The notes under the pieces were generated by a model. The model was not told the origin of the DNA and did no database searches. It was given only the letters and a program-made list of their open reading frames with translations. The position numbers were made by a program, and so were the translations under genes. Below are positions 49,753 to 53,578 of a stretch of DNA of 64,000 nt, piece after piece. Numbering within the stretch: the stretch's first letter is position 1; every line of letters begins with the position of its first letter. Source of the stretch: Pelagicoccus enzymogenes. GTDB lineage: Bacteria > Verrucomicrobiota > Verrucomicrobiia > Opitutales > Opitutaceae. The stretch is taken from NCBI RefSeq assembly GCF_014803405.1, contig NZ_JACYFG010000022.1, forward strand, positions 1-64,000, read 5' to 3'.

Positions 49753-49825
49753 CTTCACCAAGTTGAAATCTGTTACTTCGACTCTGCTTCTGCCCTTCTC
49801 GGCAATCACAACCCCAAGGAATCCA

Positions 49826-50203
49826 ATGACCCCAATATACTACAAAGAAGAAACCTACAAAATCATCGGTGCCGCGATCGAGGTCCACAAAGAGCTCGGA
49901 CACGGATTTCTCGAAGCCGTTTTTCAGGAAGCCCTAGAGCTGGAGTTTGCAGACCAATCCATTCCCTTCGAGGCGCAAAAGCCACTGCAGATCCACTACA
50001 AAGGGTACGTCCTCAAAAAAGAATACATCGCCGACTTCCTCGTCCATGACGACATCCTCGTCGAAATCAAAGCAATAGAAAAGCTTACCAGCAACGAAGA
50101 GTCCCAAGTCATCAACTACTTAAACGCCACCAAAAGAAAACTAGGCCTCCTTATCAACTTTGGCTCCGAAGGAAAACTAGAGTGGAAAAGGCTAGTTAAC
50201 TAG
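49826..50203 (+). CDS. GxxExxY-family protein with PD-(D/E)XK-like motif
   Basis: This is a 125-residue member of the GxxExxY family (motif GHGFLEAVFQ, with Phe for the final Tyr). A PD-(D/E)XK nuclease-like active site is visible: Asp in YIADFLV, then VEIKAI (Glu-x-Lys). No DNA target is known for the family, and no partner gene is present. The ATG at 49826 is chosen because conservation starts at YYKEETYKIIG; the longer frame is not supported. It lies inside inverted repeats between leuB and alaS. Confidence 0.82.
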   Translation: MTPIYYKEETYKIIGAAIEVHKELGHGFLEAVFQEALELEFADQSIPFEAQKPLQIHYKGYVLKKEYIADFLVHDDILVEIKAIEKLTSNEESQVINYLNATKRKLGLLINFGSEGKLEWKRLVN

Positions 50204-50217
50204 CCGTACTTTCCAAT

Positions 50218-50254
50218 CCTTCGTGCCCCTTAGTGCCCTTCGTGGGCAAAAAAC
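50218..50254 (-). repeat. Right inverted repeat of the GxxExxY cassette
   Basis: On the minus strand this reads a T-run, then GCCCACGAAGGGCACTAAG and GGGCACGAAGG. The inner GGGCACGAAGG is a second partial copy of the repeat core. The alaS start codon lies 7 bp beyond it. Confidence 0.8.
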
Positions 50255-50261
50255 TTCCAGC

Positions 50262-52913
<2,652 letters not shown>

Positions 52914-52924
52914 AACAGGGAAAA

Positions 52925-53038
52925 GGTAGGGCGGACTGGCCCAGTCCGCCGCGCCAACCCGATCAAATCCTCCCACCACTCCAACTCCAACTCCAACTCA
53001 CCCACCCAACACGGCGGCCTGGGCCAGACCGCCCTACC
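52925..53038. repeat. BIME-type REP pair (left copy)
   Basis: The two ends are inverted copies of a GGTAGGGCGG REP unit; each unit is itself palindromic (GGCGGACTGG/CCAGTCCGCC on the left, a one-base variant on the right). The centre has a short tandem of TCCAAC in three copies. A near-identical element follows at 53471. It begins 11 bp after the alaS stop. Confidence 0.85.
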
Positions 53039-53043
53039 TTGCC

Positions 53044-53475
53044 ATGTTACCCCAACGCAAGACGCTGCCGCATACACCACCCCCGTGGGTGTCCGACGAC
53101 GCAATCTACTTCATCACAATCAACTGCGCCCAACGCTACATCAATACCCTTGCTAATCCCAAGGTAGCAGACGCCTTATTCGAAACCGTTGCCTACCGCG
53201 AGAAGCTGCTCCAGTGGAACGTCCACTTGATGCTTCTCATGCCCGACCACCTACACGCGTTCGTAGTCTTCTCGTCCTTTCAAGCGATAAAGAAAACGAT
53301 CAAAGATTGGAAGCGATTCACAGCACGTAGCTTGCATATACGCTGGCAGGACGACTACTTCGAGCACCGCATCCGCAACCAAGCCGAACGCGACGAAAAA
53401 TGGAGCTACGTATTGAACAACCCCGTACGCGCCGGACTTTGCCAGAGCCCCAGCGAATGGCAATTCCGAAGGTAG
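53044..53475 (+). CDS. REP-associated tyrosine transposase (RAYT)
   Basis: This single-domain HUH/Y1 transposase of 143 residues has the metal-binding HLH of the HUH motif in LMPDHLHAFV. The RAYT signature follows: FKxx-like KRFTARSLH, DYFEHRIRNQAERDEKW and YVLNNPVRAGL, where the Tyr is the likely nucleophile. RAYTs bind and process REP sequences. The start is ATG at 53044, six bases after the left REP pair. The stop codon TAG lies within the GGTAGGG of the right REP pair, so gene and repeat form one unit. Confidence 0.9.
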   Translation: MLPQRKTLPHTPPPWVSDDAIYFITINCAQRYINTLANPKVADALFETVAYREKLLQWNVHLMLLMPDHLHAFVVFSSFQAIKKTIKDWKRFTARSLHIRWQDDYFEHRIRNQAERDEKWSYVLNNPVRAGLCQSPSEWQFRR

Positions 53476-53578
53476 GGCGGACTGGCCCAGTCCGCCGCGC
53501 CAACCCGATCAAATCCTCCCACCACTCCAACTCCAACTCACCCACCCAACACGGCGGTCTGGGCCAGACCGCCCTACC
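53471..53578. repeat. BIME-type REP pair (right copy)
   Basis: This is nearly identical to 52925-53038 but lacks one TCCAAC unit and differs at one base in the right-hand REP. Its first bases supply the stop codon of the RAYT gene. Confidence 0.85.

Follow-up and report, generated by a model that had tools for sequence, protein, structure and literature searches.

The gene that stands directly behind alaS in the stretch of DNA analyzed here (64,000 nucleotides from Pelagicoccus enzymogenes, called "the window" throughout) is a member of a kind already known, the RAYT / TnpA-REP genes, and its locus is ordinary in kind and well formed. With considerable confidence, we favor the explanation of a RAYT-REP locus, or "REPtron", in which a resident gene for a single-stranded DNA nuclease of the IS200/IS605 type lies between two inverted pairs of REPs and would spread REPs, and in which the flanking REPs have most likely been exchanged. 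Three related species carry the same gene at the same place, there between REPs of a different type.

Here, the REP unit is 26 nucleotides long and headed by GTAG, and an inverted pair of such units stands on each side of the RAYT gene (Table 1). The original prediction, made from the letters of the DNA, had described pairs of about 110 bp that differ mainly by one TCCAAC unit. This is what alignment delivers. The left pair (52925-53038) has 114 nucleotides and the right pair (53471-53578) has 108; 107 of the 108 aligned bases are equal, and what remains is a single substitution and a 6-nucleotide gap, which holds one TCCAAC unit. A stretch of 71 nucleotides is common to both pairs with no mismatch. 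Each whole pair is predicted to fold, as DNA, into one long hairpin (-30.2 and -31.0 kcal/mol, with none of 200 shuffles as good). The single REPs are likewise predicted to fold, with -10.9 kcal/mol for three of them (matched by none of 200 shuffles) and -8.7 kcal/mol for the remaining one (matched by one of 200). The stop codon of the RAYT gene, a TAG at 53473-53475, is inside the right REP, as had been claimed; it lies within GGTAGGGCGG and is the TAG of the GTAG head.

Table 1. Features in and around the RAYT-REP locus, in window positions.
Feature	Position	Strand	Basis
alaS, alanine--tRNA ligase	50223..52913	+	TIGR00344 equivalog, 882.9 bits, cut-off 457 (scanned from 50265)
Left pair, first REP (GGTAG head and hairpin)	52925..52950	+	fold; exact consensus match
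Left pair, spacer with three TCCAAC units	52951..53012	no strand	sequence reading
Left pair, second REP, inverted	53013..53038	-	fold; ends 5 nt before RAYT start codon
RAYT / TnpA-REP gene, 143 aa	53044..53475	+	NF047646, PF01797, 4er8 match, catalytic residues
Right pair, first REP, with the RAYT stop codon in its GTAG	53471..53496	+	fold
Right pair, spacer with two TCCAAC units	53497..53552	no strand	sequence reading
Right pair, second REP, inverted	53553..53578	-	fold; consensus match
Gene 3' of RAYT, 280 aa	53697..54539	+	family searches without match; counterpart in relative G001

The upstream gene is alaS by its TIGR00344 match, so the placement "just after alaS" holds; its stop codon occupies 52911-52913, and the gene ends 11 nucleotides before the left REP. 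Directly upstream of alaS, at 49763-50203, is a gene for a protein of the GxxExxY / PD-(D/E)XK_3 (PDDEXK_3) family.

The 143-residue product had been described as a HUH transposase, and the open reading frame, the family scores and the catalytic residues agree with this. The protein passes the NCBIfam model for REP-associated tyrosine transposases (NF047646) narrowly, with 82.9 bits against a cut-off of 80, and the Pfam model Y1_Tnp (PF01797) with 25.2 bits against 23. By sequence, its nearest solved structure is 4er8 (TnpArep; E 1.7e-5). The HxH motif is H69-L-H71 (codons 53248-53256). In the alignment with 4er8, Y122 (codon 53407-53409) faces residue 115 of the E. coli chain, and passages of PMC8266576 describe Y115F as a catalytic mutant of the E. 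coli enzyme. A structure predicted from the single sequence had a mean pLDDT of 41 and was set aside.

REPs like those at the gene are dispersed in the genome of the window (G000; 6.2 Mb, 95.9% complete). A search with the consensus GTAGGGCNGNCTGGSCCAGNCNGCC, allowing at most two mismatches, gave 75 matches, 61 of them exact and most of them in inverted pairs; the reversed pattern, used as a control, gave none. A genome-wide count had been proposed as a check in the original prediction. The bare 10-mer GGTAGGGCGG proved too short to mark REPs, with 53 occurrences in the genome against 31 for its reversed pattern, and the hairpin consensus was therefore used. Four overlapping matches on the opposite strand were dropped, leaving 71 in 42 clusters, that is, 29 pairs and 13 singles. 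The pairs read +- in 27 of 29 cases, and the other two read ++ only through the dropped overlapping matches.

These dispersed pairs differ from the pairs that flank the RAYT gene in their spacing and, mostly, in their second arm. The gap between the two units is 23 nucleotides in 25 of the 29 pairs (24 tabulated, and one that includes a dropped match on contig C6); at the RAYT gene, the gaps are 62 and 56. When 60 of the 61 exact matches were re-read, 28 had the first arm found at the RAYT gene (two of these are at the gene itself), 22 had a second arm (GTAGGGCTGTC...) that is absent there, and 10 were other variants, including the second arm of the right pair (four copies).

The number of matches overstates the number of independent insertions, since 20 of the 42 clusters fall in four stretches (contigs C9, C16 and C38, and the last 16 kb of C35), many of them within longer shared sequence. 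These stretches are contig ends and small contigs. At the end of C35 (L049), the REP units stand in groups, 256-303 nucleotides apart. The first arms are all on the plus strand on C9 (L050), C38 (L051) and the C35 end, and one of the two on C16 (L054) is on the minus strand. An integron cassette array, considered for C35, C9 and C38 with their first arms in one orientation, was dropped from the repeat reading and the mixed directions of the open reading frames. Two copies (L049 7394-7560 and L050 3916-4046) have a small CTTCGACTTTGCTCAGGCTAGA-like sequence inserted in the hairpin of the second REP, a repeat nested in a repeat.

This clustering bears on the view that the locus is a relic, whose gene no longer works and whose repeats are leftovers spread by recombination or with neighboring DNA. 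Longer shared sequence around nearly half of the clusters is what such a view would expect. So is the leader of the gene. The RNA from 52914 to 53100 has a predicted fold of -73.1 kcal/mol (z -5.8) that pairs two bases of the RAYT ATG out of three, the left hairpin ends just ahead of that ATG, no ribosome site before it is visible by eye, and the list of open reading frames holds no in-frame start upstream of it. From this we infer that translation of the gene may be poor or regulated; a longer transcript may, of course, fold otherwise. Nevertheless, we regard a relic as quite unlikely. The frame is open and the catalytic residues are in place. The ratio dN/dS is well below 1, being 0.12-0.16 in four of ten pairs of RAYT genes, where dS is near saturation (it is saturated in the other six); for alaS in the same genomes, the ratio is 0.07-0.25. 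Furthermore, exact REP copies occur on many contigs besides the four stretches, and two relatives, G001 and G003, have the flanks of a dispersed C39 pair without the pair itself, more than the pair being missing there (264 nucleotides in G000 correspond to 71 in G001, and 275 correspond to 15 in G003).

The original prediction had also raised the question whether the transposase is the only RAYT of its type. It is not alone. A protein search with it finds eight RAYT loci in G000, each between its own repeats; a match on C31 (E 0.05, 37 amino acids) is left out of this count, and two matches on C16 are counted as one gene. A Pfam search of the same genome gave nine matches, seven above the cut-off, and one on C4 (20.4 bits) lies outside the eight loci. 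At all eight loci, a repeat of at least 20 nucleotides is common to the upstream and downstream flanks, where shuffled flanks (10 each) gave at most 11. The repeat sets of the eight loci are, by eye, unlike one another. Two of the other sets were also counted in G000. REPs of the type at the C33 RAYT gave 59 matches (11 exact) and those of the type at the C16 RAYT gave 30 (12 exact), each with a control of 0.

A TAG stop within a GTAG recurs in five of the eight RAYTs of G000 and in 12 of 28 matches with a locus in relatives (of the 28, L083 has only 104 nucleotides downstream). A perfect stem of at least six follows directly behind the GTAG stop in four of those five and in seven of those 12; some of these stops (L106, L108) may be chance. 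At the C8 RAYT (134 kb; L044 / L058), the left repeat supplies the TAG that closes an upstream frame of 464 amino acids, as the right repeat does for the RAYT. The C16 RAYT (about 2.5-2.9 kb; L041 / L053) reads in two frames and looks frameshifted in this assembly. At the C35 RAYT (505 kb; L043 / L057), the longest stretch shared by the flanks, 92 nucleotides, is mostly sequence from the 5' end of the gene, and 45 nucleotides of that end occur three times on one strand, upstream and downstream, as if absorbed into the repeat array. Passages of PMC2817692 report a similar uptake for the 3' ends of RAYT genes.

The search was extended to 38 genomes, that of the window included, of which 22 have a RAYT match at E <= 1e-5; eight (G000-G007, again with the window's own) form the genus set. 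Close relatives of the window protein stand directly after alaS in G001, G004 and G006 (76%, 69% and 73% identical to it, respectively), and the four alaS-linked proteins are 69-79% identical to one another. No RAYT was found behind alaS in G002, G003, G005 or G007, and the nearest relative in G005 is located elsewhere. Neither of the two observations named beforehand as speaking against the original prediction, an absence of other REP copies from the genome and a disrupted active site in close relatives, was made. The copies exist, and the HxH motif and the tyrosine are kept in 35 of 36 aligned RAYTs (eight of G000 and 28 of relatives); in the exception, L093, the HLH is there and the frame ends before the tyrosine. 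Among named genomes, a search for RAYT relatives gave one locus, in an Alteromonadaceae MAG (34%), which was set aside.

Since four species of the genus have the gene behind alaS, it looks resident and inherited. Were it instead part of an ordinary IS200/IS605 insertion sequence that moves in one piece, bounded by the REP pairs, the catalytic family would be the same and the layout transposon-like, as they are here. This alternative is very improbable. The model for the IS200/IS605 family (NF033573) gives 20.8 bits, below its cut-off of 55; the nearly complete genome holds one copy of the window protein, the next RAYTs being 42 and 46% identical to it; and the position after alaS is common to the four species. 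The claim that the intact pairs make this a good model of an active unit is supported in part. A RAYT gene with flanking REPs, and with REP copies elsewhere, is indeed present. Active movement does not follow from an intact pair. The gene has the same place in four species, and the dispersed pairs have a different gap and, mostly, a different second arm. According to passages of PMC6006769, joint transposition of the gene and its REPs does not seem to occur at RAYT-REP loci.

A shared position might also have been reached by separate insertions at one preferred site, each gene arriving with its own REPs. One origin requires several losses, because four genomes of the genus have no RAYT after alaS, and one of these, G003, has an AlaS 90% identical to that of G000. 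The junctions differ as well. In G006 (L117), the stop codon of alaS is the REP's own TAG, from the left REP, where in G001 and G004 it stands ahead of the REP; the last AlaS residues are KAFPW in G006 and KAFSL in the other two. No empty site was recognized, in that the window's downstream gene has no match within about 1.5 kb behind alaS in the four genomes that lack the RAYT. Against separate insertions, the four alaS-linked RAYTs form one clade (support 87/73), traced to a single origin by 84% of 200 bootstrap trees, and G000 groups with G001 (95/62, the second value being weak). AlaS identities also place G000 nearest to G001 (94%), and G001, alone among the loci tested, has a counterpart of the gene 3' of the RAYT in the corresponding position (63% over 290 amino acids); both neighbors of the RAYT are thus shown to be shared with G001 only. 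Separate insertions are accordingly an unlikely account, if one to be kept in mind.

If the gene is one by descent, its flanks are not of one type. The core of the REP at the alaS-linked RAYT is CTGGCCCAG in G000 and GACCGCCGGGC in G001, G004 and G006, where the flanking REP is as in GTAGGGCGNGACCGCCGGGCNCGCC (the first arm of the left pair in G001 is a variant outside the GACC pattern). Within a genome, the left and right pairs are clearly alike in G000 (94% over the longer copy) and in G001 (87%), and not so in G006 (65%), whose left pair is closer to the left pair of G004 (80%). The pairs of G000 are 56-72% identical to those of the relatives, and the relatives' pairs reach 79-81% between species (G001 with G004; the left pair of G006 with that of G004). 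Here, the right pair of G001 is the second of two right-hand units, and the right side in G004 runs into a contig end.

The dispersed REPs follow the type at the gene in most cases. Raw matches with at most two mismatches to the window's type (CTGG) and to the relatives' type (GACC), respectively, number 75 and 1 in G000, 7 and 51 in G001, 40 and 51 in G004, and 6 and 27 in G006; reversed controls gave 0 for both types, the relatives' counts are raw throughout, and the two patterns differ in their number of open positions. The remaining genomes of the genus gave 0 and 0 (G002), 0 and 0 (G003), 0 and 8 (G005), and 0 and 1 (G007). Thus, the type that flanks the gene clearly outnumbers the other in G000, G001 and G006, and the two are about equal in G004 (26 and 27 exact). 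The single GACC match in G000 lies within an open frame of 324 amino acids.

This pattern suggests, as far as sequence comparison can, that the gene stayed put while its flanking REPs were swapped for another type. Most likely, the exchange took place in the lineage of G000 or in that of the relatives, in either direction. By contrast, RAYTs of the C33 type in G001 (followed, by eye, by a similar gene) and in G003, which may be orthologous, have retained the C33 type of REP.

How flanks might be exchanged is a further matter. An existing, separate REP family may have captured the alaS-linked RAYT, its repeats overwriting the flanks, the specificity of the enzyme following, and the former family vanishing; we offer this as a speculation, and doubt it more than we believe it. 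The branch leading to the RAYT of G000 has 0.27 changes per column, against 0.11 for its sister in G001. If capture were true, G004 would represent a stage at which the invading family had not yet captured the gene, or else its enzyme would serve two families at once. That genome has 40 matches to the window's type, yet the three RAYTs found there at E <= 1e-5 are flanked by other repeats; its assembly is in 170 contigs, from which a RAYT may be missing. The link between a REP type and a neighboring RAYT is therefore not strict, as REPs of the window's type in G004 have no RAYT found beside them. This, together with the exchange of REP type, is worth the attention of specialists.

In the favored explanation, that of a resident gene with exchanged flanks, the enzyme would act as its published counterparts from E. 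coli, Stenotrophomonas and Marinomonas do. It would bind GTAG-headed hairpins as single strands and cleave beside the hairpin, using Tyr122 as the catalytic residue and H69 and H71 as metal ligands. By the same analogy, REP pairs would be mobilized elsewhere in the genome, and the gene itself would remain behind alaS and pass on by inheritance. After an exchange of flanks, the type now at the gene would be the type that multiplied. What matters here is how the fit between enzyme and hairpin survives a change of the hairpin, and with two unlike REP types in four species the locus lends itself to comparison. Cross-talk would be measurable too, as a single genome holds eight RAYT loci, each with its own repeat set.

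Several known systems invite comparison. With the REPtron, related to IS200/IS605 and made of a RAYT / TnpA-REP gene and its flanking REPs, the locus has in common HUH and a single tyrosine, inverted GTAG-headed REPs on both sides, a single gene copy, and dispersed REPs. RAYT genes are always found between two inverted REPs according to passages of PMC2817692. The numbers differ from those given in parts of PMC3686654: G000 has eight RAYT loci (one in two frames), whereas no strain of the published Pseudomonas and Stenotrophomonas set has more than four, and 75 matches are few compared with the hundreds of REPs per class in fluorescent pseudomonads and the tens to few hundred in stenotrophomonads. 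Like a REPIN or BIME, each pair at the gene has two REPs in inverted order and close together, and makes one hairpin; the dispersed pairs mostly have the 23-nucleotide gap and unequal arms, and in this the two kinds of pair part. Passages of PMC3733652 note that GTAG REPs often supply TAG stops to neighboring open reading frames. The same is seen here, with the difference that the frame so ended is the RAYT itself and, in G006, also alaS.

The closest precedent for the exchange is the "orthoswitch", a change of REP class at an orthologous RAYT described in 2013 for Pseudomonas and Stenotrophomonas (PMC3686654, in the parts consulted). In the literature searched, itself available in part, no report of one in Verrucomicrobia was found; PMC3733652 came up for RAYT genes there. 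The mechanism of the orthoswitch can, according to the same parts of PMC3686654, only be guessed at. The alaS case resembles it. The RAYT is orthologous by position (after alaS, in four genomes), its flanks carry different classes of REP, and in three of these genomes the class that flanks the gene clearly outnumbers the other class counted, the two being about equal in G004. Matches to the class that is not at the gene are the single one within an open frame in G000 and the 7, 40 and 6 CTGG matches in G001, G004 and G006, respectively, and either class may be the earlier one. In degree, the case differs from many of the published orthogroups, which list near variants (Tables 1 and 2 of that paper, by eye), while SM6 and SM7 there differ about as much as the two classes do here.
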